DNA of 42,869 nt, taken from IMG/VR virus record IMGVR_UViG_3300037264_008483, positions 1 through 42,869 of that record; one strand, given 5' to 3'. The DNA comes from a virus. The translations under genes were made by a program, and so were the position numbers. Positions 2,870-40,524 of this stretch are shown here, one piece after another. Positions within the stretch are counted from its first letter, which is position 1. Each line of letters starts with the position of its first letter. A model generated the notes under the pieces. That model made no database searches and was not told the DNA's origin. It saw only the letters and a list, made by a program, of their open reading frames with translations.

Positions 2870-2909
2870 GGGTTGAGGCTCCAGGTCACCGTGCGCTGGG
2901 GCTTTCGTC

Positions 2910-3002
2910 GATCAACACGGCCAGCCCGAGCACCGCGGTCTGCCCGTTTCGACGTTTCGACGTTTCGGCGTTTCACGTTCGCACCGCCCCGGCCTCGATC
3001 TT
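2910..3002. repeat. 93-bp direct repeat, copy B
   Basis: Near-identical to 2470-2570 but with one 8-bp unit fewer in the internal array. It supplies the last codons of the RuvC-like gene (IEAGAVRT) and a truncated 5' remnant of the dockerin-like gene. Confidence 0.85.
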
Positions 3003-3542
3003 CATCCGTTCGATGGCGAACCGCCCCAGCCCGATGGCGTCGGCCACGTCGGCCCCGCCGTCTTTGGAGATCACTTCGCGATACTGCGGAAACTCCATGG
3101 CCACGGCCATCTGCCGTTTGTTTTTCTGCACGCCGCGGGTCCAGGCGTTCTCTTCCAAGGTCAACACCTCGATCCGCCGGCCCTGACCGCCGATCGGGGC
3201 CCGGGCCGCCGACCACAACGCCCCCACGGCCAGCCCGTAGATCGACAGCCCCGCCCCTCTGCCCAAATGTCGATTGCCCACGTGACCCGAGGGAATCTCG
3301 ATCACGATGTTCCGCGGCATCAGCTCGTGCATCAGCTCGCGCAGATCGACCACCATCTCCGCGATCCGTTCGATTGCCGGGGCCTCGCGCTTGGGGGGCT
3401 GCAAATATCCAGCATCGATCAGCGCGGCGCCGGACGGCGCATCGTGGAACATCTCAAACACCGCGTACCCCGTCCGCGTCGAACTGGGGTCCAGGGCCAA
3501 GAGCTTGACCAGCGTTTCCTCCGGGGCTGTTCGTGTCTTCAT
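2973..3542 (-). CDS. RuvC-like Holliday junction resolvase
   Basis: The 189-residue product has the RNase H-fold pattern of phage RuvC-type endonucleases. The first strand LLALDPSSTRTGYAVFE provides Asp18, the second acidic site is Glu82 in IVIEIPSG, and Asp165 and Asp168 lie in DGGADVADAIGLGRF, as expected for a metal-dependent junction resolvase. It would resolve branched replication or recombination DNA before packaging. The ATG at 3542 overlaps the preceding stop in an ATGA; the upstream TTG is less likely. The final eight residues lie in the duplicated block, so the C-terminus may have been rebuilt by that duplication. The family call is firm; the exact substrate is inferred. Confidence 0.85.
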   Translation of the reverse strand: MKTRTAPEETLVKLLALDPSSTRTGYAVFEMFHDAPSGAALIDAGYLQPPKREAPAIERIAEMVVDLRELMHELMPRNIVIEIPSGHVGNRHLGRGAGLSIYGLAVGALWSAARAPIGGQGRRIEVLTLEENAWTRGVQKNKRQMAVAMEFPQYREVISKDGGADVADAIGLGRFAIERMKIEAGAVRT

Positions 3543-4012
3543 CGTCGTTTCCAAAAGTACGCGAACTTATCGTCGGACCGGGAGGAGAAGTGCTGCTCGT
3601 TGCGTTTCAAATACCCCTTGATTCGGTTTTTCATCGGGGTCCGTTGCGCTTCGACCGCCGGCAGCGGCCACCGGATGCCCTCGTCGTCTTTTAATGCGAG
3701 AAACGCCCCCAGGAATTCGCGCAACACCGGATCGCCGGTCGCTCGGACACACTTTGTCGGCATATTGACCAATCGAATGACCATGAAGGGCACGTTTCCG
3801 GGCGCGATTTCGCGCCCGTCGGGGGCGACAACGGCAGGCGTCCGCCGCGACGCCGCCGCCGCTCCCGTCTTCCGGCCCGCCGGACAGACGTGCCGCTTCA
3901 CGCACCCGGAGCAGCAGCAGAGATCCCCGCAAATCGGGCACGTAATCGCCGACCGCACGGGGACCGAGCCGCCGCACGCGCTGCACGCCCCCATGTCCGC
4001 GCCGCTCACCAT
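3539..4012 (-). CDS. cysteine-rich zinc-finger protein of replication module
   Basis: The product has 157 residues. The N-terminal 45 residues contain nine cysteines (C10, C13, C25, C28, C32-C34, C37, C43) consistent with two small zinc-binding sites. A charged C-terminal half has a basic helix-rich tail (TPMKNRIKGYLKRNEQHF). The ATG at 4012 overlaps the end of the replication gene. Placed between the replication protein and the resolvase, it may act in DNA replication or as a loader-like partner, but this rests only on context. Confidence 0.6.
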   Translation of the reverse strand: MVSGADMGACSACGGSVPVRSAITCPICGDLCCCSGCVKRHVCPAGRKTGAAAASRRTPAVVAPDGREIAPGNVPFMVIRLVNMPTKCVRATGDPVLREFLGAFLALKDDEGIRWPLPAVEAQRTPMKNRIKGYLKRNEQHFSSRSDDKFAYFWKRR

Positions 4013-5016
4013 CCCAATTGCTCCATTTTGCGCCGCCGTCCCTCGTTTTCGTCGGCGATACTGATCACCGCCCGCAGGTCCCGCCGGATCAGGAAGGCGA
4101 ACAGGGCTGCGGGGTTCTGGCCCAGGCGGCCCGCGTGGGCCGCGGCCGCGAAAAACCAATCCACGTCGGCCTCGACGTCGGCCTGGATCAGCCCGCACTC
4201 CGCCGCCCGAGCGAACAGATCGGCGAAACGGTGCCCATCGCCCAGGTCCGCGCTCGCCACGTGAAACCCATCCCACGCCGGCGCCGGCGTGTTTCCATTG
4301 TTTTCAAGCCGCGAGTTTCCGAGCCGCGACCGTAAGGGAGCGGTTGCCCCGTCTCGCGCCCGCGACCGCGTGCGCGCATTGTCTTTAAGACCTGTTATAA
4401 AAACACCACAATCACGAGGACCATGAGATGGTCTATGAGATGGTGGAGTCGCATTTTGCGACTGACCCAGTCGCATTTTGCGACTGACCCAGTCGCACTT
4501 TTCCTCGCCTGCTTGAGTTCGGCGATTTTGGCTTTGCCCTACATCGCCGTCCAGTCCCGGAAACAGGGCCGCCTGGGCCCCGGGTTCGACGGTGTAACGA
4601 ATCAGCCGACCGTCCACGTCGCGCACCAGGCGGGCGTTCTCCCGCGGCACGGCGGCTTGCAGCAGGGCGCCTTGATGCCCCGGCACGCCCCAGGAATTGG
4701 CGATGGTGCGGATCCTGGCCCCGTGCAGGCGGATTTGCCCGCCGCGCCCCAAAAGCACCAGGAACCCCGCCCGGCACAGCTTGGTCACGCTGCGCCAGTA
4801 GGTCGCCTTGTTGACCCCCGCCGCCTCGGCCAACGCAACGCCGCTGCCGAAACACCCAGTCAGCGAGCCGTCTGGGTGCGGCGCATCGCAGCGATCGGCG
4901 ATGGTTTGCAAGATGATCCGGGCCGATTTGGGCATACGCGTCCATGCGTCCGAGCCGGTGATCGACTTCGGAAGATGATTGTGCCAGGCCGTCCGTGGCT
5001 GGGCGTTGCTCTGCAT
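4006..5016 (-). CDS. phage replication initiator-like protein with internal origin
   Basis: The 336-residue product has an N-terminal winged-helix-like region (about residues 28-100; ARIILQTIADRC and AGVNKATYWRSVTKLCRAG) as in phage replication initiators. A low-complexity linker (about 155-255) follows, then a helical C-terminal domain that could contact helicase machinery. The linker is encoded by 22-bp iterons and an AT-rich tract (4379-4500), the arrangement known from lambda O. A host-type repeat (4316-4348) is also translated within the linker. The ATG at 5016 is chosen over an upstream TTG. The replication role is inferred from domain layout, iterons and neighbours. Confidence 0.65.
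   Translation of the reverse strand: MQSNAQPRTAWHNHLPKSITGSDAWTRMPKSARIILQTIADRCDAPHPDGSLTGCFGSGVALAEAAGVNKATYWRSVTKLCRAGFLVLLGRGGQIRLHGARIRTIANSWGVPGHQGALLQAAVPRENARLVRDVDGRLIRYTVEPGAQAALFPGLDGDVGQSQNRRTQAGEEKCDWVSRKMRLGQSQNATPPSHRPSHGPRDCGVFITGLKDNARTRSRARDGATAPLRSRLGNSRLENNGNTPAPAWDGFHVASADLGDGHRFADLFARAAECGLIQADVEADVDWFFAAAAHAGRLGQNPAALFAFLIRRDLRAVISIADENEGRRRKMEQLGW
4316..4348. repeat. CCGAGCC...GCGGTTGCC element inside the replication gene
   Basis: A 33-bp copy of the dispersed element (TTTCCGAGCCGCGACCG, then GGGAGCGGTTGCC). It is read in frame by the replication gene as part of the linker, so the insertion has not broken the gene. Confidence 0.85.
4379..4500. other. candidate replication origin: AT-rich tract plus iterons
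   Basis: Bases 4379-4420 are clearly AT-richer than the surroundings. Next come two copies of ATGAGATGGT (4423-4432 and 4435-4444), then two perfect tandem 22-bp repeats (4447-4468 and 4469-4490) and a partial third. Each 22-bp unit contains the inverted repeat GTCGCATTTTGCGAC. An unwinding tract beside iterons within the initiator gene is the classical lambda-type origin layout. Confidence 0.65.
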
Positions 5017-6020: not shown

Positions 6021-6058
6021 TTGCGATCTCCTAAAAAAAAGTTAGACGAATCACAAAT

Positions 6059-6133
6059 TGGCGGGGGCTGGACTCGAACCAGCGACCTTCGGATTATGAG
6101 TCCGACGAGCTATCAAAACTGCTCCACCCCGCT
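6059..6133 (-). tRNA. initiator-type tRNA-Met (anticodon CAT)
   Basis: The minus strand folds into a full cloverleaf: seven-base acceptor AGCGGGG with CCCCGCC, D stem GAGC/GCTC, anticodon stem TCGGA/TCCGA with loop CTCATAA, and T arm GCTGG-TTCGAGT-CCAGC. It carries initiator hallmarks: an unpaired 1-72 position (A1 opposite C72) and A11-U24 in the D stem. The anticodon stem has two of the three usual G-C pairs plus A31-U39. The D loop (AGTTTTGATA) lacks the usual GG. No CCA is encoded. The close match to bacterial tRNA-fMet makes the identity convincing; functionality is less certain because of the D-loop changes. Confidence 0.85.
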
Positions 6134-6140
6134 ACCTTTT

Positions 6141-7065: not shown

Positions 7066-7623
7066 TCACGGAGTCCCCAGCACGATCGCCGCGGCCAGCA
7101 GCCCGACTGCTACGATCGTTCCCGCGACGATCCAATCGCCGCAGCAAAGACGGCGGGCGGCGTGTTCGGAAGCGCCGCCCGCCGCGTTGGCGCAGCCCGC
7201 CGTTGGGACTGTCCGGCGAGCAGGAAAGAAGCTCTCATAATCCCCCTGCCCGAAGCGGCAGAGGGGAAACGTCGAAACGGATGTGCCACTGCTCGGTGAG
7301 CAGTGACTTTGCTCTTCGGGCGATTCGTGCAGGTTGTACGCCTCTTTCCGAGCCGTCCTTGACACAACCGTGTCAAGGATGAGGGAGCGGTTGCCTCTTT
7401 GCTCTTCGGGCGACTCGTTCAGGCTGCACGACAATCGACGCCGCGGGCCCGCAGTCATCGCCCGCACCCGTTGGCGCAGCTCCGCCGCCCCGGTCAGCCC
7501 GGCGCGGACCCGCAGGTCGGCGAGCCTTCTCCCGGAGACTTCTGACGCATGGACTCGCGGCCGCCCCGGTGCCACATTGTGGCACCGAGATTGTATGTTA
7601 TGTCGTACTCGATTATCGGACAT
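7066..7623 (-). CDS. putative membrane-anchored protein interrupted by a repeat insertion
   Basis: About 185 residues from the ATG at 7623. The N-terminal half is basic. The middle is translated from a dispersed hairpin element (7345-7397) flanked by two copies of a 34-base segment (7309-7342 and 7399-7432), giving two ESPEEQ motifs. The C-terminus has one membrane helix (WIVAGTIVAVGLLAAAIVLG). It overlaps the preceding repressor-like gene by 11 bases and is coupled to the next. The repeat content suggests a hybrid or decaying gene; perhaps only the C-terminal anchor region is original. Confidence 0.4.
   Translation of the reverse strand: MSDNRVRHNIQSRCHNVAPGRPRVHASEVSGRRLADLRVRAGLTGAAELRQRVRAMTAGPRRRLSCSLNESPEEQRGNRSLILDTVVSRTARKEAYNLHESPEEQSHCSPSSGTSVSTFPLCRFGQGDYESFFPARRTVPTAGCANAAGGASEHAARRLCCGDWIVAGTIVAVGLLAAAIVLGTP
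7345..7397. repeat. CCGAGCC element with 10-bp hairpin core
   Basis: The element contains TCCTTGACAC-AACC-GTGTCAAGGA, a perfect 10-bp stem with a 4-base loop, between the CCGAGCCG and AGGGAGCGGTTGCC ends. It sits in the frame of the membrane-anchored protein. Confidence 0.85.
7598..7621. repeat. 24-bp direct repeat, copy 1
   Basis: Identical to 8292-8315. It contains TCGTACTCGATTATCGGAC with a CGAT-T-ATCG dyad. The two copies bracket the repressor-like gene, the divergent promoters and the first plus-strand gene. Confidence 0.85.
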
Positions 7624-7831
7624 TACTGATCGGCCTTTTGGAACGGGTGGGGCGGCCATTATCGGACTCGATCTTTTGGCCAGTGTCCCTATGAAAACCG
7701 CGTGTTTCGCAGAAAACGTCGAGCAGGACGCTGAACTGGAGTCCGCGCCCGCGTTTTTCGCTCTCGCAGACGGCGTCGAAGACCCGCCGGTCCGGCTCGG
7801 TCACCGAAATTTGAGTTCTGACCTGCTGCAT
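7613..7831 (-). CDS. ribbon-helix-helix repressor candidate (leaderless)
   Basis: A 72-residue protein whose start VRTQISVTEPDRRVFDAV is typical of ribbon-helix-helix proteins: a beta strand, then two helices (about residues 13-27 and 31-42). The C-terminal third is basic. It is transcribed from a sigma70-like promoter whose -10 box lies only nine bases before the ATG, so the mRNA should be nearly leaderless, as for cI of lambda. The back-to-back promoter pair beside it is the natural operator location. A repressor role is inferred from fold and position. Confidence 0.55.
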   Translation of the reverse strand: MQQVRTQISVTEPDRRVFDAVCESEKRGRGLQFSVLLDVFCETRGFHRDTGQKIESDNGRPTRSKRPISNVR

Positions 7832-7840
7832 GTCGGCGGC

Positions 7841-7869
7841 ACTCTAGCATGGCTTTCGGCATCTGTCAA
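7841..7869 (-). promoter_or_regulatory. sigma70-like promoter for the repressor candidate
   Basis: On the minus strand TTGACA (7869-7864) and TAGAGT (7846-7841) are separated by 17 bases. The ATG of the downstream gene lies nine bases beyond the -10 box, predicting a very short or absent leader. Confidence 0.6.
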
Positions 7870-7883
7870 CGACAATCTTGACA
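7864..7883. promoter_or_regulatory. candidate operator between divergent promoters
   Basis: The two -35 boxes form a 20-base inverted repeat, TGTCAA-eight bases-TTGACA. A dimer of ribbon-helix-helix pairs bound here could block both promoters. Confidence 0.4.
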
Positions 7884-7906
7884 ATGTTTTCAGATTCGTG
7901 TAGGAT
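7878..7906 (+). promoter_or_regulatory. sigma70-like promoter for plus-strand genes
   Basis: TTGACA (7878-7883) and TAGGAT (7901-7906) are separated by exactly 17 bases. It is oriented toward the only plus-strand genes. The leader of roughly 125 bases before the first gene contains no other recognised feature. Confidence 0.65.
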
Positions 7907-8042
7907 GTGTCCGAACGGGGCGATTCGTGGAGGCCCATTTTGGCCGTTGGATCCAGCGGGGTGCTGGGGGGCTTACCCGCTTTTTCGGCGAGAATGTCGC
8001 CAGGTAGTTTACAAGGTGACCCCCCGCGATGAAACACAACAG

Positions 8043-8285
8043 ATGGGGGTTGGTAGTGGTGAGGTCCACAGGATGCGGGGCGCGGGAATGGACGAAGAAC
8101 TCTTGGACATTTTGAGGGAGATGCGGGAGCACTACCGCCGGCTGATGGACCCGGACCGGGGAGTATATCGGCGGCGGGCGCCGGGACTGCGCAATCCGCT
8201 CGAGGAGCGGTTCCGCCGGTGGTACACGGCCCTGGATGAGGCGATCAAGACGGTGGAATGCGAGACGGTGGCCAACGTCTCATAA
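8043..8285 (+). CDS. small helical protein under the divergent promoter
   Basis: Between 66 and 80 residues, depending on whether the ATG at 8043, 8073 or 8088 is used. The core (DEELLDILREMREHYRRLMD, then RNPLEERFRRWYTALDEAIK) is strongly helical and charged, consistent with a coiled-coil or small DNA- or protein-binding regulator. It is the first gene after the plus-strand promoter and lies eight bases before the membrane-protein gene. No family is recognised. Confidence 0.55.
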   Translation: MGVGSGEVHRMRGAGMDEELLDILREMREHYRRLMDPDRGVYRRRAPGLRNPLEERFRRWYTALDEAIKTVECETVANVS

Positions 8286-8291
8286 GGTTTA

Positions 8292-8315
8292 TTATGTCGT
8301 ACTCGATTATCGGAC
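8292..8315. repeat. 24-bp direct repeat, copy 2
   Basis: Identical to 7598-7621. This copy covers the start codon and first codons (MSYSIIG) of the membrane-protein gene, so a protein bound here could control its expression. Confidence 0.85.
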
Positions 8316-9157
8316 GGTTGCGTTTACGCCGCCCCCCAATTGCACGTGACGCGCGGCGGCATGGGTCGCCACCATCGTCGAGACGGCGGGCGGTATCGGC
8401 CGCACAAATGATCGCTGGCGCCCTCCTCTGGCTACTGCTCACGATGTTCGCTCTCTACCGCGGCCATGAAGTGGCCCGCCGGAACGCCGCCGAGGCCGTC
8501 GAGGCCCGCAGGCAACTGACGTTCGCGGAAGACCGTGAGATGGCCGCGACTCAGCCTCCAGAACTTCCGCCCAATCCCTACGCCATCGCACAGCCCGATC
8601 TCGCCGATCCGGCATCGCCTGATCTTGATCCGATCTTTCTGTCCGACGCCATCGCCGGCGCCGCGGACGGCGTGCCACGCACGCTCTGCGATGAGGACGA
8701 TTCCTGCCTGAAGTACGTCACGCTCTTGAAGGCCGGAACTATGATCCTCAGCGGCGCCAAGCGCCATCGGGCGGTCACCCAGGCCGTGGCCGTGCGGCTC
8801 TCCGACGCATGGCGAGACGCCTGGGCACGGCAGGGCTTCGAGGATCAGACCACGCACCGCCTCTGGTCAATCGTGCTGACCGCTACGCCCGATGAACGGT
8901 TCGCCGCCGCGGTCTGTCATCGGGCATTGGAAGGGGCCTACAACGTCGCCCGCGACAAAACCCTGCGCGCCGAGATCCGCGATCGGTTCAACGAGCAGGC
9001 CCTACAGCGTTGGACGGATGCGATGAGCGTCCGCCAGCCGCACAATCCATATCCCGACCCCAGTCGGCCGACGCTGAGGGTCCATGATTCATCCTCGACG
9101 CCGGCGCTCGAGCAGATGCCGGAGTGGGATTGGTCCTCAAACCATGGCTCGCCGTGA
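8294..9157 (+). CDS. single-pass membrane protein, unknown function
   Basis: The product has 287 residues. After a basic N-terminus it has one membrane helix (MIAGALLWLLLTMFALYRG, about residues 39-57), then a long soluble region with helical character and two cysteines (LCDEDDSC). The ATG at 8294 is preceded by AAGG; a shorter form could start at 8408. It is one of only two plus-strand genes and runs convergently into the end of the 9137-9895 gene, overlapping it by about 20 bases. It may be a lysogeny-expressed envelope protein such as an exclusion factor, but only its position and membrane anchor suggest this. Confidence 0.65.
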   Translation: MSYSIIGRLRLRRPPIARDARRHGSPPSSRRRAVSAAQMIAGALLWLLLTMFALYRGHEVARRNAAEAVEARRQLTFAEDREMAATQPPELPPNPYAIAQPDLADPASPDLDPIFLSDAIAGAADGVPRTLCDEDDSCLKYVTLLKAGTMILSGAKRHRAVTQAVAVRLSDAWRDAWARQGFEDQTTHRLWSIVLTATPDERFAAAVCHRALEGAYNVARDKTLRAEIRDRFNEQALQRWTDAMSVRQPHNPYPDPSRPTLRVHDSSSTPALEQMPEWDWSSNHGSP

Positions 9158-25616: not shown

Positions 25617-25787
25617 TTTTCCGAACCGCGCCCGTTCGAACCGCGCCCTTTCCGAGCCGCGCCTTTTCCGAGCCGCGACCGTCAGGGAGCGGTTGCCTCC
25701 CTAGCCGCGCCTGTTCGAACCGCGCCCTTTCCGAGCCGCGACCGTGTCGGCGAGCTCCCGTCGAGCCGTCAGGGAGCGGTTTGCCTC
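25617..25787. repeat. compound CCGAGCC element array
   Basis: At least five left halves (CCGAGCCGCG and CCGAACCGCG variants) and two GGGAGCGGTTGCC right halves fill most of this 170-base gap between the capsid gene end and the connector gene. The last copy carries the GTGTCGGCGAGCTCCCGTCG variant core. Confidence 0.85.
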
Positions 25788-27908: not shown

Positions 27909-28391
27909 CTACGCCACCGCCCGCACCCGCCCGAACTTGGCGTTGTGCGACGCCTCGTAGCGCTCGGCTAACGCCGGATCGCGCTTGGCCACGGCCTTCA
28001 CCGCCTCGTGACGCTTCTTGCCCCGCTTCTCCTCGGCGGCCACGGCCTCCTCGAAGTCGGCCGCGGCGTCACCGCTGTCGCTGCCGGCGCCAGGGCCGCC
28101 AGCCGGCACCGCGGGCACTCCGACGCCCTTCTTGCCCGCCTCCTGGGCCTTGGCCGCGTTCGCCTGGGCCTGTGCGGCTTCCGTCTTGGCCGCGGCGGCA
28201 GCGGCGGCGAGGGCCTTGTTCTGCTCGCGAAGCTCGACCATCCAGCGGTCTTTGGCCTCGGCGAGCGTAAGCCCGCTCTCCTGACACTTCTCCCGAAAAT
28301 CAGCCGTGCTGTCCGGCAGCGCTGCCTTCAGCTCGACGATAGTTGCGGCCTTTTTCTCCGCGGCCGCCGGCGTTTCCGTCGTTGTGCTCAT
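27909..28391 (-). CDS. nested scaffold protein (internal start)
   Basis: An in-frame ATG at codon 305 of the S49 protease gene is preceded by AAAGGAAGTGGCG, an excellent internal ribosome-binding site. The resulting 160-residue product is alanine- and charge-rich and largely helical (RWMVELREQNKALAAAAAAAK), like lambda Nu3, which is made the same way from inside gene C. Confidence 0.75.
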   Translation of the reverse strand: MSTTTETPAAAEKKAATIVELKAALPDSTADFREKCQESGLTLAEAKDRWMVELREQNKALAAAAAAAKTEAAQAQANAAKAQEAGKKGVGVPAVPAGGPGAGSDSGDAAADFEEAVAAEEKRGKKRHEAVKAVAKRDPALAERYEASHNAKFGRVRAVA

Positions 28392-29303
28392 CGCCACTTC
28401 CTTTCCGCGGCGTCCGCCGCTGACTGACTGGCGCAGGTCCGACAGGACCTGATCCAGCGTTCCAATGCGATCGATCAGACCCAACGCCAGGGCTTGCGCC
28501 GCTCCGTGGATCCGGCCGTCGTTGATTTCCGCGACTTTCTCCGGGCTCATCCGCCGCCCGCGGCCGACTGCCGCGGCAAACGGCTCGTTGAGTTCGTCGA
28601 TCACCCGCTGCAAATCCATCAGGTGATCGGCGGTGACCTCCGTGCCCCTCACGCCGACCCCCTTAAACTGCCCGGCCCGCACCACGTGGACCTTGACGCC
28701 CTCCTTGGCCGCCAAGCCGGACCAATCTTCGATCACGGTGTACACGCCGATCGAGCCGACCAGGCTGTTCTTCCCGGCGGTGATGCTGCCGCCCTGCGAG
28801 GCCACGAAATACGCGGCGCTGGCCCCCATGTCCTCGATGAAAACGCTGGTGGGCTTTTTTTGCCCGGCGGCGTCAAAGTCGTCGGCCAGATCCGACGTCC
28901 CGCTGACCGTCCCACCCGGACTGTCGATGCGCAGCACGATGGCCTTCACGTCGTCGTTGGCCACCGCCTGCCGGATCGCCCGCCGCACCCGCGTTGTGCT
29001 GCCCCCCTCGGTGAAACTGCCGCCGAACTTGCTCATCGGCCCCGACAGATGGATCACGGCGATCCCGTCCAGCAGCTCGAACGCCGGGAGCGGGAGGGCC
29101 TTCTCCGCCGCGGCTTTGGCCTGGGCGGTCAGGTGCAGGTGAATCTGCGGGTCCGCGGCCCGGAACCGGGCCAACAGCTCGTTGAACGCCGGCTCATAAA
29201 TGGCCAGGGCCCCGTAGCACTCCGCGAACTGATCCCCATGCGGCACCGGCACCCCGGCGTAGACCAGTGGCGAGTGCCGAGTGGTGAGTGGCGAGTCGCT
29301 CAT
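27909..29303 (-). CDS. S49-family head maturation protease with C-terminal scaffold
   Basis: The product has 464 residues. The protease domain has the SppA/ClpP-like pattern: VLRIDSPGG (oxyanion region, about residues 124-131), catalytic Ser162 in MGASAAY and Lys214 in GQFKGVG. The C-terminal third is a helical alanine-rich scaffold also made separately. It would process the prohead, as lambda gpC does. AGGAGG seven bases before the ATG at 29303 fixes the start, so the first dozen residues (SDSPLTTRHSPL) are encoded by a spacer repeat. The start overlaps the portal stop as ATGA. Confidence 0.9.
   Translation of the reverse strand: MSDSPLTTRHSPLVYAGVPVPHGDQFAECYGALAIYEPAFNELLARFRAADPQIHLHLTAQAKAAAEKALPLPAFELLDGIAVIHLSGPMSKFGGSFTEGGSTTRVRRAIRQAVANDDVKAIVLRIDSPGGTVSGTSDLADDFDAAGQKKPTSVFIEDMGASAAYFVASQGGSITAGKNSLVGSIGVYTVIEDWSGLAAKEGVKVHVVRAGQFKGVGVRGTEVTADHLMDLQRVIDELNEPFAAAVGRGRRMSPEKVAEINDGRIHGAAQALALGLIDRIGTLDQVLSDLRQSVSGGRRGKEVAMSTTTETPAAAEKKAATIVELKAALPDSTADFREKCQESGLTLAEAKDRWMVELREQNKALAAAAAAAKTEAAQAQANAAKAQEAGKKGVGVPAVPAGGPGAGSDSGDAAADFEEAVAAEEKRGKKRHEAVKAVAKRDPALAERYEASHNAKFGRVRAVA
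29263..29298. repeat. translated GAGTGGCGAGT-type repeat
   Basis: CACTCGCC-type repeats at this boundary are in frame in the S49 protease N-terminus and form its residues 2-13. Confidence 0.7.
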
Positions 29304-30901
29304 ATCGAAACCTCCTGGTTCGTTTCAACGTTTGGACGTTTCGACGTTTCGGCGTTTTCGTCGTCGCCTTCCATCTCGCTGCTCTTCTCGCCCCAGTTCC
29401 AGGCGCACAGTTCCCGCCAGGTGACGTCCGTCTTGAGTTCCTGATTGATCTCCTCCGCCGTCTTGATGGCCGCAATCACGAACTCCTTGCGATCGGCGAA
29501 CACCTCGCGCACGTGCGAGCCCCAGTCCAGCGACAGCCGCTCAGCACACCACCGCCGCGGGCTGATGTGGGCCTTTTGCAACTTGAGATCGTCGCCCTGG
29601 GCGTCCTTCAGCGGCTCGATGTACGCCCATCGCGGGGCGTTGAACTTGTGTTTGTAAATGGCCGCGCCAAGCGTGCCGAACTGACCGGCCAACGCCGCGT
29701 CTGCGGCGATCCAGCGCGAAAGCTGCCAGCGGTACACCGGCGTGTACCACTGATCGCGCATGATGCCTTGCAGCTTCCGGAATCCGTACCGGGCCTGATC
29801 GATGGCCCCGCGCCAGCCCGAGAAGTTCGTTTTGCTGGGATCCAGCAGCAGCACGGCCAGCGGGATCCCCAGATTCACCGCGATGATGGACAGCACCAGC
29901 TCGGCGTGCTCCTTGAAGGTCGGCGAGGGCACGTTGGGCGAGGCCAGCGACACGGTTTCGCCGACCCGACCGATCACCTCCATGCCCGGCGAGAGCCCGG
30001 CCACGGTCCGCGTGCTGCCGTCTGTCAGCACCTCCTGCACGGTGAGGCCCCGGCCCTCGGGGGCGGCCATGGGGGCGCCGCCGGCCACGATGTTCCGCAA
30101 AATGGCCACGCAGGAGACCGTCTGCTGCTGGACCAGGGCGGCGAACTGGACGTCGTCGTGCAGACTGATTGGGAAAGTCACCGGCAGAAAGACGCTGATG
30201 CCGCGGCTCTGGCTGATCCGTTTGGGGTTGAACAGGTGCAGGGCCACGAGTTCGCCGGCCTCGTTCCGCCGCTTGATGCGGATCATGTCCGATACCCGTT
30301 CGATCCGCCCGTTGACCCCGATCTCCTTTTTGGTGACCCAGTATTCCAGCGGCTCGGCGGTCAGCTCGTCGATCAGCACGCCGTGGACCACGTTTTTGGC
30401 GGTGTTCTTCGGCGTGCGCAGCCGATGGGCCTCGATGACTTGCAGCTTGCCCTGATCGGTCAAAAGCCCCAGCGCGTCCCCGTCGACCTGCATCGCGCGC
30501 ATCGCCGACCAGGTCAGGGCCTCGAAGGGCATGGCCCCGCGAATGTCGCACTGCCCCGGGTCCATCCGCCAGGCGTCCCAGCGCTCGCTCAGGTCCGCGT
30601 CCAGCTTGTCGTCGCCGGTGTCCGGATCCAGCACCAGCCCCTCTTGCAGCACGTTGTCGCAGACTCGATTGACCGCCTGCCCGACGATCATGTTGGTGAG
30701 ATCGAACTGCCTGGCCCTCTCGATGGCCCGGAAAAAGACCGACTCGGAGGCGTAGTGCCAGTCAGCCCCCGAACCGGCGGCGTTCACTCCCCGCAGCCGC
30801 GGCAAAAACCGGCTGTCCTCGCCCAGCGGATAGGCCGATTTGATCCGGCTGAAGGTCTCCGGAACGGTCTCGCCGCTGTAGATTTCCCCGATTCCCCGCA
30901 C
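29300..30901 (-). CDS. lambda-family portal protein
   Basis: A 533-residue protein clearly of the lambda gpB portal type: an N-terminal region with SRFLPRLRGVN, then MIVGQAVNRVCDNVL and RWDAWRMDPGQCDIRG, the central GISVFLPVTFPISLHDDVQFAAL and the C-terminal ELVLSIIAVNLGIPLAVLLLDPSKTNFSGWRGA. It would form the dodecameric portal through which DNA enters. The GTG at 30901 follows GGAGCGATAGCGACGC. The last residues (ETSKRPNVETNQEVSI) include a translated octamer array, so the C-terminus is a spacer addition. Confidence 0.9.
   Translation of the reverse strand: MRGIGEIYSGETVPETFSRIKSAYPLGEDSRFLPRLRGVNAAGSGADWHYASESVFFRAIERARQFDLTNMIVGQAVNRVCDNVLQEGLVLDPDTGDDKLDADLSERWDAWRMDPGQCDIRGAMPFEALTWSAMRAMQVDGDALGLLTDQGKLQVIEAHRLRTPKNTAKNVVHGVLIDELTAEPLEYWVTKKEIGVNGRIERVSDMIRIKRRNEAGELVALHLFNPKRISQSRGISVFLPVTFPISLHDDVQFAALVQQQTVSCVAILRNIVAGGAPMAAPEGRGLTVQEVLTDGSTRTVAGLSPGMEVIGRVGETVSLASPNVPSPTFKEHAELVLSIIAVNLGIPLAVLLLDPSKTNFSGWRGAIDQARYGFRKLQGIMRDQWYTPVYRWQLSRWIAADAALAGQFGTLGAAIYKHKFNAPRWAYIEPLKDAQGDDLKLQKAHISPRRWCAERLSLDWGSHVREVFADRKEFVIAAIKTAEEINQELKTDVTWRELCAWNWGEKSSEMEGDDENAETSKRPNVETNQEVSI
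29320..29357. repeat. octamer array translated in the portal C-terminus
   Basis: Four to five diverged octamer units are read in frame as the last portal residues (ETSKRPNVET) before the overlap with the protease gene. Confidence 0.8.
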
Positions 30902-31362: not shown

Positions 31363-31439
31363 GCGCGTACGGATGCTGTCAGGTAGTCAACGGTTGTAAA
31401 GGAAGAATTTCAGGAAAGGTGGGAAGGTTGTGGGGTGCG

Positions 31440-31650
31440 TTTTTTCCGAGCCGCGTTTTTTCCGAGCCGCGACCGTCAGGGAGCGGTTGCCTCGATCAAC
31501 GCCGGGAGTTTTTCGGAGCCGCCGCCTTTCCGAGCCGCGACCGTCAGGGAGCGGTTGCCTCGATCAACGCCGGGAGTTTTCCGAGCCGCGCCTTTCCGAG
31601 CCGTCCTTGACACAACCGTGTCAAGGATCAGGGAGCGGTTGCCTCGATCA
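31440..31650. repeat. three tandem CCGAGCC elements
   Basis: Three complete copies, the last with a TCCTTGACAC hairpin core, fill the junction. The first two are separated by CGATCAACGCCGGGAG, itself repeated. The last copy provides the stop and final codons (EATAP) of the ASCH-domain gene. Confidence 0.85.
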
Positions 31651-33266: not shown

Positions 33267-33385
33267 TTTTCCGAGCCGCGACCGTGAGGGAGCGGTTGCC
33301 TCGATCACGCCGGAAGCTTTCCGAGCCGCCGCCTTTCCGAGCCGTCCTTGACACGCACTGTGTCAAGGATGAGGGAGCGGTTGCT
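33267..33385. repeat. CCGAGCC element array with hairpin core
   Basis: Two complete copies, one with TCCTTGACACGCACTGTGTCAAGGA-type core (here 10-bp arms, 4-base loop), between the DNA-binding protein gene and the cysteine protein gene. Confidence 0.85.
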
Positions 33386-33398
33386 GCGACGATCCCTC

Positions 33399-37379: not shown

Positions 37380-39374
37380 TCACCTCGCTAAAACGTGAAA
37401 AGGTCGCCCATCCGGCGTGGTCAACTGTTGTTGCGTGGCTTCCTGGCTCCGCGGCTTCGCGACTGCCGCAGCGATTCTCCGCGCCCCGCAGAAATGGGCC
37501 GCTACCAAGGCCCCGTAAACGCAGTCAAACCAGTGATTCGATTTTCGTTCTCTGTGCCACCATCGCACCCATCCCTCCCCCGGCACGAATTCCTCTTTCT
37601 GCACCTCGGCGGTGAAGTGACTGGCGATCGCCGCGTGCTCACCGGGCATGGCCGAGAACAGTGCCAGCGCCCCCGGCTCCTCCGGGTCCGAGACCAGCCG
37701 ATCGTGGACCTGCGACTTCCAGAAATCGGCGTTCATTTCCACGCAGTAGGTGCTGGGCTGATCGTACAGCGAAATGTGATACTGCTCGCCGACGTAGCGG
37801 ACCTGCTTGTTGATCTTGGTGTGCGGCCGGTAGATGCCGGTGCGCTCCTGCCCGCGCCCGTACCCCTTCGTGGGATACCAGCGCCAGGGGCTCTTGGGGT
37901 TGATCTCGGCCGCCATGCAGAATTGGTAGACCCAATCGGTGTTGTAACCCGAATCCACGAACACCACGTCCGGGCTGCGCAGACCGCCCGAAGCCGCCGC
38001 CCAACCGTGTTGGGTAAGATCGTGGAACTCGTGCAGACCCACCCACAAGGCCCGCTGCTCGCCCAGCTCGTGCGTGGCCAGGGCAAAGACCCCGTAGTCG
38101 ATGACCACCGACGTGGCGTCCCTCTTGCTCGCCAAGGCGAGCCAATGGCAGTTCCATTTGTGGACGTCGATCGCCACGGTGAGGTAATCGAATTCCGCGG
38201 GCACCAGCCCCCGCGGCGTCCCCGTGACCCGCTTGACCACGTGCTCGCGGGTGATGGCCGACAGGTTCAGTTGCGTGCCGGCGTAGGGGATGCACCAATC
38301 GAATTGATGCAGCTCCCGGGCCTGATTCTCCTTTTTGCCCTCGTCGGCCTCCTTGGCGTGCCGGTATTCATTGAGGGCCACGGCCTTGGGGCTGACCAAG
38401 CAGTTGTGTACCGCCGTCCAACGAAAGCCCAGCGACCGGGTCCGCGGCAGGTCTCCGATGACTCGATCGCCTTCGATCGACTGGCCCTTGTGGACCAGCA
38501 GGGCCTGTTGGTTGGCCTCGTGCCGCTCATGCTCCGTCCATGCCTTCCCGCAGTGCCAGCAGGCGAATCGAGCGTTCTCCTCCGCCGCGATTTCGTCGAT
38601 CGCCTCCTGCCAGCCGATCAGGAGTTTGCGGTCCTCGTCGGTCCCCTTGGGAATGACCCATTCGCCGCAATGCGGACACTTCAGGGCGATGTGGGCGGCG
38701 CTGCCGCCTTGATAGCTGCTCCAGATCTTGCCATGCTCGGTGGTGACCGTACACTCGCCGAAAATTCGCACCTGCGACAAATCCCAGCCCTTGGTCCGGG
38801 CCACCATCTGCGCAACCTTGTCGGCCTCTTCGGACGCCTCCCCGGCCTTGTCCAGCCCGTCGACCTCGGTGATCACCAGATAGCGAGTGTTGAAGTGGGC
38901 CCGCTGTTTGTCCCCCCCGCCGCCGCCCATGAACTTCAGAAAAGCCCCGTTGCCGAACTTGATCAGATCGGGAATGCCACCCCGGGACCCGCCGCCCTCC
39001 TGGGGAAGAAACTGGGCGAAGCGGGTCCGGGCGATCACCGGCCGGAGGTCGCGCTCCCATTTGTCCTTGGCCATGCTGATGTCCGGCAGCCCGAAAACGC
39101 ACGTCTCGCGCAGCTCGAACAGGATGTAGAGCAGCACGATGATGCAGCAGCTCAGGGTCTTGCTGCTCTGGGTGGGCCCCGTGACCCAGAACTGCCGCCA
39201 GCGCCCGCTGTCCACCTCGTCAAACCACAGGGCCGTGAAGGGCTGCCGATCGCAGCGATAGCGGAGCCCGGCGTACGTGCCGGTGGGGATCACGATCTCC
39301 TGCTCGGCGAACTCCCGCATGGTCCTCACTCGAGGCGGCCGGCACTGGGCCAGCGCCCACCGAGTCTCCTCCAT
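37380..39374 (-). CDS. terL: large terminase subunit (lambda gpA/GpA family)
   Basis: About 664 residues. The ATPase has Walker A GPTQSSKT (about 66-73) and Walker B YLVITEVD (about 165-172). A zinc-ribbon insertion (CPHC at 233-236, CWHC at 272-275) is typical of the GpA family. The nuclease domain supplies Asp403 (VAIDVH) and Asp474 (VVFVDSGYN). It packages and cuts DNA with the small subunit. The ATG at 39374 is preferred; upstream codons would translate a CCGAGCC element. The gap to 39543 holds that element. Confidence 0.9.
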   Translation of the reverse strand: MEETRWALAQCRPPRVRTMREFAEQEIVIPTGTYAGLRYRCDRQPFTALWFDEVDSGRWRQFWVTGPTQSSKTLSCCIIVLLYILFELRETCVFGLPDISMAKDKWERDLRPVIARTRFAQFLPQEGGGSRGGIPDLIKFGNGAFLKFMGGGGGDKQRAHFNTRYLVITEVDGLDKAGEASEEADKVAQMVARTKGWDLSQVRIFGECTVTTEHGKIWSSYQGGSAAHIALKCPHCGEWVIPKGTDEDRKLLIGWQEAIDEIAAEENARFACWHCGKAWTEHERHEANQQALLVHKGQSIEGDRVIGDLPRTRSLGFRWTAVHNCLVSPKAVALNEYRHAKEADEGKKENQARELHQFDWCIPYAGTQLNLSAITREHVVKRVTGTPRGLVPAEFDYLTVAIDVHKWNCHWLALASKRDATSVVIDYGVFALATHELGEQRALWVGLHEFHDLTQHGWAAASGGLRSPDVVFVDSGYNTDWVYQFCMAAEINPKSPWRWYPTKGYGRGQERTGIYRPHTKINKQVRYVGEQYHISLYDQPSTYCVEMNADFWKSQVHDRLVSDPEEPGALALFSAMPGEHAAIASHFTAEVQKEEFVPGEGWVRWWHRERKSNHWFDCVYGALVAAHFCGARRIAAAVAKPRSQEATQQQLTTPDGRPFHVLAR

Positions 39375-39412
39375 CACCCCGCGCCGCTTCCACCCGTCCG
39401 CCTTCCGCCTCT

Positions 39413-39523
39413 CCGCGCCGCGACCGTGCGACTTTTCCGAGCGTTTTTCCGAGCCGCCACTTTCCGAGCCGCGACCGTGTCGGCGAGCTCCCGTCGAGCC
39501 GTGAGGGAGCGGTTGCCTCGATC
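39413..39523. repeat. compound CCGAGCC element before the large terminase gene
   Basis: Several left halves and one right half with the GTGTCGGCGAGCTCCCGTCG variant core lie in the leader between the methyltransferase gene and the large terminase gene. Confidence 0.8.
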
Positions 39524-39543
39524 CACGCCGTTTGGGTGTTTTT

Positions 39544-40524
39544 TCAGTGAGAGCAACCATACAGGGCCAGTTGGTTGTGCGACAATCGTTTGCGGGTCAT
39601 GTCCAGGTACTCCGCTTTCAGCTCGATGCCGATGTACTGCCGCCCGTGCCGGATCGCGACCATGCCCGTGGTGCCGCTTCCGTTGAAACAGTCGAGGACC
39701 ACGCCGCCCTTCGGCGAGCCCGCCAGGATGCACGGCTCGATTTCTGCGCTGCCCGCCGTAGAGGGTTCGATGCCTGGCTTGGTTTGCGGGCCGATGCACG
39801 CACCGCCTGAGACGCCCGCCGCCTTCTCTTTGATCGCCTCGGCGTCGTAGTGATACGTGGCGGACTTCGACAAGAGGAAAACGTAATCGTGGGCCTTAGT
39901 GCAGCGGTCGGTCACGGACTCCGGCATCGGGTTCGGCTTCGACCAGATGATGTCCTGGCGCAGATACCAACCGTCGGCGCGGAGGGCGAAAGCGACAAGC
40001 CACGGAATGCCAACGAGGTCTTTGGGTTTCATCGTCGGGACGTGGCGACTGCCGACGGAATTTGATCCCTTGTTCGTTTCCTGTTTCTGGCCGACCAAGT
40101 CCGTGGTCTTTCTCTGTCCTGGGTGCGCGTTGTAGCTGTCGCCGAGATTCAGCCACAGCGTCCCATCCTCCCGCAGCACGCGGCGCACTTCGCGAAACAC
40201 GCCGACCATCGTGGCGACGTATTCTTCCGGGGTGCGCTCCAGGCCGAGTTGTTTGTCGATGCGGCAAGCGCCGCAATCAAGGCACACGGAAGCATCGACG
40301 CCTGGCCGGACTCCGCTCGCGATGGCCCCTGGGGCTTTGGTGTCTTGCACTTGCCCGCCTACGCGATGTTCACAATTCGCGTCCCCGCCCTCCCACACCC
40401 CCGTCCCGTAATCCCGCAGGCCCCAGTACGGCGGGCTCGTTACACAGCAATGCACGGACTCGTCGGCCAGCCCCGACAGGACCGTCCGTGCGTCACCGTG
40501 GTGCAGCGTCGCGTCCGTCGTCAT
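39544..40524 (-). CDS. beta-class DNA methyltransferase (N6A/N4C)
   Basis: A 326-residue protein. Catalytic motif IV TSPPYW is at 29-34 and the SAM-binding FNGSGTTG lies near 280-287; this IV-before-I order is the beta class, which methylates adenine N6 or cytosine N4. C51, H53, C81 and C84 may bind zinc. The ATG at 40524 overlaps the HerA-like stop as ATGA. It probably protects phage DNA from host restriction. No cognate endonuclease is visible, so it is an orphan enzyme. Confidence 0.85.
   Translation of the reverse strand: MTTDATLHHGDARTVLSGLADESVHCCVTSPPYWGLRDYGTGVWEGGDANCEHRVGGQVQDTKAPGAIASGVRPGVDASVCLDCGACRIDKQLGLERTPEEYVATMVGVFREVRRVLREDGTLWLNLGDSYNAHPGQRKTTDLVGQKQETNKGSNSVGSRHVPTMKPKDLVGIPWLVAFALRADGWYLRQDIIWSKPNPMPESVTDRCTKAHDYVFLLSKSATYHYDAEAIKEKAAGVSGGACIGPQTKPGIEPSTAGSAEIEPCILAGSPKGGVVLDCFNGSGTTGMVAIRHGRQYIGIELKAEYLDMTRKRLSHNQLALYGCSH

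Follow-up and report, generated by a model that had tools for sequence, protein, structure and literature searches.

Phage switches of the cI/cro type have back-to-back promoters at the point where transcription diverges. In P22, the regulators Mnt and Arc are ribbon-helix-helix (RHH) proteins, and an antisense RNA is made from its own promoter and encoded opposite its target. Within the P22 ant region, the sar antisense RNA and repressors jointly control the downstream gene (PMC2629481). A further precedent comes from divergent type I toxin-antitoxin loci, in which pairing over 18 to 21 nt suffices and takes place in the 5′ untranslated region (UTR) (PMC4147584). The loci tisB/istR-1, zorO/orzO, dinQ/agrB, and shoB/ohsC have divergent transcripts with ∼18 to 21 nt of perfect complementarity (PMC4147584; PMC3567139).

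Here, we compare these systems with a locus for which we favor, at a probability of roughly one in two, a reading as a tailed-phage control region with divergent transcription, comprising promoters, a gene for a small candidate DNA-binding protein, and a rightward operon. It resembles cI/cro-type switches in its back-to-back promoters and its small candidate DNA-binding protein at the divergence point, but no integrase, repressor of a known family, or set of repeated operators was seen in this phage record. P22 immunity I (mnt, arc, ant, and sar; the “ant moron”) is similar in its repressor genes and in the principle of an antisense RNA; however, the antisense role here would fall to the 3′ end of a regulator mRNA by way of a repeat. 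No sequence similarity to P22 was found, and the RHH identity of the 72-amino-acid (aa) protein is weak. Divergent type I loci are alike in having divergent complementary transcripts, one of which encodes a membrane protein (PMC4147584; PMC3567139). In contrast, their antitoxins are separate noncoding RNAs that pair in the 5′ UTR and not over the start codon, and their toxins are small peptides, whereas the membrane protein predicted here has 287 aa.

The window, by which we mean the whole stretch of DNA analyzed, is one IMG/VR virus record in full (42,869 bases, 64.5% G+C). Lambda-type head genes for a GpA-type terminase (37380 to 39560), a portal (29300 to 30901), and a maturation protease (27909 to 29303), all on the minus strand, accompany a DNA methyltransferase gene (39544 to 40524) on the same strand; the source is a bacterial virus, a tailed phage. 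Terminase relatives in IMG/VR share 37 to 56% identity, and two of them sit in bacterial metagenome-assembled genomes, one being that of a Planctomycetaceae bacterium; the relatives reached via the terminase are too distant to carry the divergent locus. Three copies of GAGCCGCGACCGTNAGGGAGCGG, a motif repeated in the window, are present in 1 of 119 Planctomycetota genomes, compared to zero occurrences of the reversed control. Given the terminase relatives and this one genome, the host is likely a planctomycete. Profile searches for tyrosine (PF00589) and serine (PF00239) recombinases gave no match anywhere in the record, which may be incomplete, and neither an integrase nor another lysogeny gene that would mark a temperate lysis-lysogeny switch was found in it. 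The window also holds a tRNA-Met (CAT) gene (6058 to 6134, minus strand) and a RuvC-like candidate (2973 to 3554, minus strand) that falls below the cut-off at an E value of 0.016 and whose match in a relative lies just upstream of the terminase (L002:1538-1798).

Several families of repeats and hairpins occur elsewhere in the window. The 8-mer GACGTTT(C/T) forms 18 short arrays with between two and eight units each; both orientations occur, and most arrays lie close to the boundaries of genes (at 2511, 2951, 11244, 13297, 13416, 17112, 17167, 18473, 18547, 18954, 19048, 21610, 23070, 23626, 27409, 29335, 30918, and 31006). In none of the relatives compared was a three-unit array found. An interspersed REP-like family, TTTCCGAGCCGCGACCGTNAGGGAGCGGTTGCCTC, is located at 1373, 4315, 6142, 7344, 21316, 25649 to 25760, 26926, 31437 to 31650, 33267 to 33390, and 39446 to 39525, and its core is present in one planctomycete genome. 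In four copies of this family, a near-perfect hairpin, TCCTTGACAC-AACC-GTGTCAAGGA, replaces CGACCG. The element at 7344 to 7396 is flanked on both sides by a 34-bp sequence of 88% identity (7307 to 7430), as if it lay within, or had caused, a duplication. A 16-bp similarity, GGGCGATTCGTG(C/G)AGG, at 7318, 7408, and 7918 was set aside, the third copy being estimated as within chance for a few kilobases. A local duplication of ∼109 bp (2465 to 2573 and 2905 to 3005) contains a GACGTTTC array; the open reading frame (ORF) at 2167 to 2544 has its GTG start (2544, minus strand) within the first copy. A perfect hairpin at 2111 to 2156, with a 21-bp stem and a 4-nt loop, is much longer than any other in the window, and tandem copies of AGTCGCATTTTGCGACTGACCC form interlocking perfect hairpins at 4447 to 4497.

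The promoter pair is located where leftward genes give way to rightward genes. A sequence-only reading of the window had proposed two sigma70-like promoters that point apart, both with TTGACA and a 17-base spacer, and a scan for consensus matches over positions 1 to 40000, by which all promoters were called, bears this out. The leftward promoter, TTGACA-17-TAGAGT (7841 to 7869, minus strand), has an extended −10 TG, and the rightward one is TTGACA-17-TAGGAT (7878 to 7906, plus strand); both match the consensus at 10/12 positions and are the joint best sites in the scanned interval, where all others reach at most 9/12. TTGACA hexamers number 12 in the window on both strands, two of them being these −35 boxes and eight lying inside the four TCCTTGACAC-AACC-GTGTCAAGGA hairpin copies. 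The boxes stand back to back, 8 bp apart, as TGTCAA-N8-TTGACA (7864 to 7883). The inverted repeat to which the earlier reading had drawn attention is thus present, with arms of only 6 bp and no extension, but two divergent TTGACA boxes always produce such an arrangement, which therefore adds nothing in favor of an operator.

The predicted start sites of the two transcripts are ∼79 bp apart. The leftward −10 box ends 9 nt before the ATG at 7831, so the 5′ leader would be ∼2 to 4 nt and the leftward mRNA nearly leaderless, in agreement with the earlier proposal that this transcript begins almost at its start codon. From the promoter and ORF positions, the rightward transcript would have a leader of 160 nt (7913 to 8072, plus strand).

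The leftward ORF (7613 to 7831, minus strand) encodes the 72-aa candidate regulator, which had been put forward as an RHH protein. Its N-terminal motif, VRTQISVTE, resembles VRTQIQLTE and VRTQIYLTE of real RHH members, and a single-sequence structure model of low confidence (pLDDT, 60) places helices at residues 12 to 27 and 33 to 44 after a possible strand. Scored against a profile built from the domains of 30 planctomycete RHH proteins, the ORF obtained a weak 6.4 bits, a value equaled or exceeded by 9 of 5,000 of its own shuffles, and it ranked only fourth among 604 ORFs of the window. The protein matched no curated RHH (CopG/Arc) family profile and had no match in Pfam (E ≤ 1), PHROGs, NCBIfam, or PDB; PF01402 gave no match in the record even at an E value of 10, and Foldseek returned no significant match to the model. 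No homologues were found in IMG/VR, and matches in phage records were at chance level only. At 0.03 bits per codon, the ORF has a weak codon profile, and its last 26 codons have a noncoding-like base composition by position. What survives of the RHH assignment is a weak profile signal and a helix-helix model, and we regard it as possible but weakly supported.

On the rightward side, an ORF of 70 aa (8073 to 8285, plus strand; 65 aa if it starts at 8088) has GAGG eight nt before the ATG at 8073 and a good coding profile, like the phage's own (0.38 bits per codon); no homologues were found in IMG/VR. It is followed by a gene for a predicted single-pass membrane protein of 287 aa (8294 to 9157, plus strand), whose model shows one confident long helix, the confident part of which starts near residue 38 to 39. 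The start at ATG 8294 is plausible from the sequence, with AAGG six nt upstream making a better ribosome site than that of ATG 8408. The latter, which directly precedes the transmembrane helix, is nevertheless a real alternative because the first 38 codons differ from the remainder in positional G+C (0.63/0.71/0.61 versus 0.69/0.51/0.78). Several genes of this phage have a GGAGCG(G)TAGCGACGC-like stretch right before the start codon. No homologues of the membrane protein were found in IMG/VR, in phage records, or in the order of the one genome sharing GAGCCGCGACCGTNAGGGAGCGG, and searches of 294 Planctomycetota genomes gave marginal partial matches only.

The locus is bracketed by two exact copies of a 24-bp direct repeat, TTATGTCGTACTCGATTATCGGAC, at 7598 to 7621 and at 8292 to 8315 (both plus strand), which confirms the earlier observation of perfect repeats at these positions. 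No other site in the window matches at 16/24 or better. The longest exact repeat in simulated third-order Markov genomes (n = 20) was 15 to 19 bp, and in simulated 1.5-kb stretches (n = 500) it was at most 16 bp; because the simulated genomes reach no more than 19 bp, the repeat is not attributable to chance. Its ends are sharp, with alignments of the flanks scoring within the shuffled range, and no exact 22-mer of it was found in IMG/VR. The leftward gene ends within copy 1, where its stop codon (7613 to 7615) lies. Copy 2 spans ATG 8294 and codons 1 to 7 of the membrane-protein gene. The claim that it covers the start of this gene is plausible given the AAGG, but it is tempered by the poorly coding codons 1 to 38 and the alternative ATG.

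Taken alone, the repeats are most likely a relic of local duplication or recombination with no present function, the promoters being a separate matter, and we regard the odds of this as about even. The genome has another two-copy local duplication, the ∼109-bp one at 2465 to 2573 and 2905 to 3005, and many repeat families; related phages likewise contain isolated two-copy repeats of ∼20 bp whose copies lie within 3 kb. Furthermore, the codons adjoining both copies are poorly coding, as expected near a junction. A relic fits less well with 24 bp of perfect identity that ends sharply, without homology beyond, or with the positions of the copies, the first coinciding with a stop codon and the second with a start codon that has a good ribosome site. 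For the locus as a whole, we consider an ordinary divergent control region most likely, its repeats being perhaps no more than a remnant of duplication.

The transcription, binding, and repression that we infer for such a control region would proceed as follows. Two strong promoters with back-to-back −35 boxes would fire leftward and rightward, the leftward one giving a nearly leaderless mRNA for the small candidate DNA-binding protein and the rightward one an mRNA with a 160-nt leader for the 70-aa protein and the membrane protein. The small protein would most likely bind the shared −35 region or its immediate vicinity, thereby repressing one or both promoters. The 24-bp repeats could be left over from an old local duplication, or they could give the leftward mRNA a 3′ end antisense to the membrane-protein mRNA around its start codon.

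The second option follows from a property that the sequence-only reading missed. Because the repeats are direct and the transcription units diverge, the two transcripts are mutually complementary over 24 nt, as the geometry dictates provided that both promoters fire. With that same proviso, the perfect complementarity of these neighboring RNAs is longer than ∼18 nt, and documented systems pair over as little as 18 nt (PMC4147584). The leftward mRNA 3′ end might pair in trans with the initiation region of the membrane-protein mRNA and block translation or trigger cleavage, an idea that we treat as tentative and rather unlikely. In that case, pairing would span −2 to +22 of ATG 8294, and expression of the regulator would silence the membrane protein twice. 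The calculated energy of the 24-nt hybrid is −40 kcal/mol, and opening the repeat site would cost 6.5 kcal/mol in each predicted RNA; ranked against the other sites of each RNA, this cost falls under the 5th percentile for the rightward transcript and within the lowest quarter for the leftward one. By this calculation, pairing is thermodynamically feasible, but the low opening costs are due in part to the low G+C of the repeat (42%), and any such repeat would look alike. Since the stop codon lies inside copy 1, a regulator mRNA reaching ∼15 nt past it would carry nearly all of this copy; a terminating ribosome would, however, cover part of the antisense stretch. Ten nucleotides past copy 1 on the leftward RNA, a perfect 9-bp hairpin with a 3-nt loop (7567 to 7587, minus strand) could mark the 3′ end, but it lacks the U run of a terminator. 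A further point against pairing over the start is that the membrane protein may truly begin at 8408. Overall, we think it improbable that the regulator mRNA doubles as an antisense RNA, with one transcript both encoding a repressor and blocking translation of the opposite operon.

The earlier description of the locus as a genetic switch stands insofar as sequence signals indicate a divergent control region; the looping or excision potential attached to it does not. That the small regulator uses the repeats as operators and loops the DNA across the promoters is very unlikely: the repeats do flank both promoters, at ∼220 bp on the left and ∼385 bp on the right, but no half-site common to the repeat and the promoter region was seen, copy 2 is within coding sequence, and a pair of operators would not need to be identical over as much as 24 bp. 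Slighter still is the chance that they are recombination sites for excising or circularizing the 694-bp interval, as their direct orientation and exact identity would permit and with a joined product that would retain the membrane-gene start, given that the record shows no tyrosine or serine recombinase, that the repeats have no dyad arms flanking a recombinase-type core, that 24 bp is short for general recombination, and that neither a contig with the joined site (searched for in IMG/VR) nor sister contigs with or without the interval were found.

If the antisense reading is false, the locus is an ordinary divergent phage promoter pair beside a duplication relic. If it is true, the locus would be a compact switch built on a dual-function mRNA, from a phage lineage of which hardly any members have been studied, and it would supply a rule by which to search for others: exact direct repeats that flank divergent promoters, one of them lying over a start codon.
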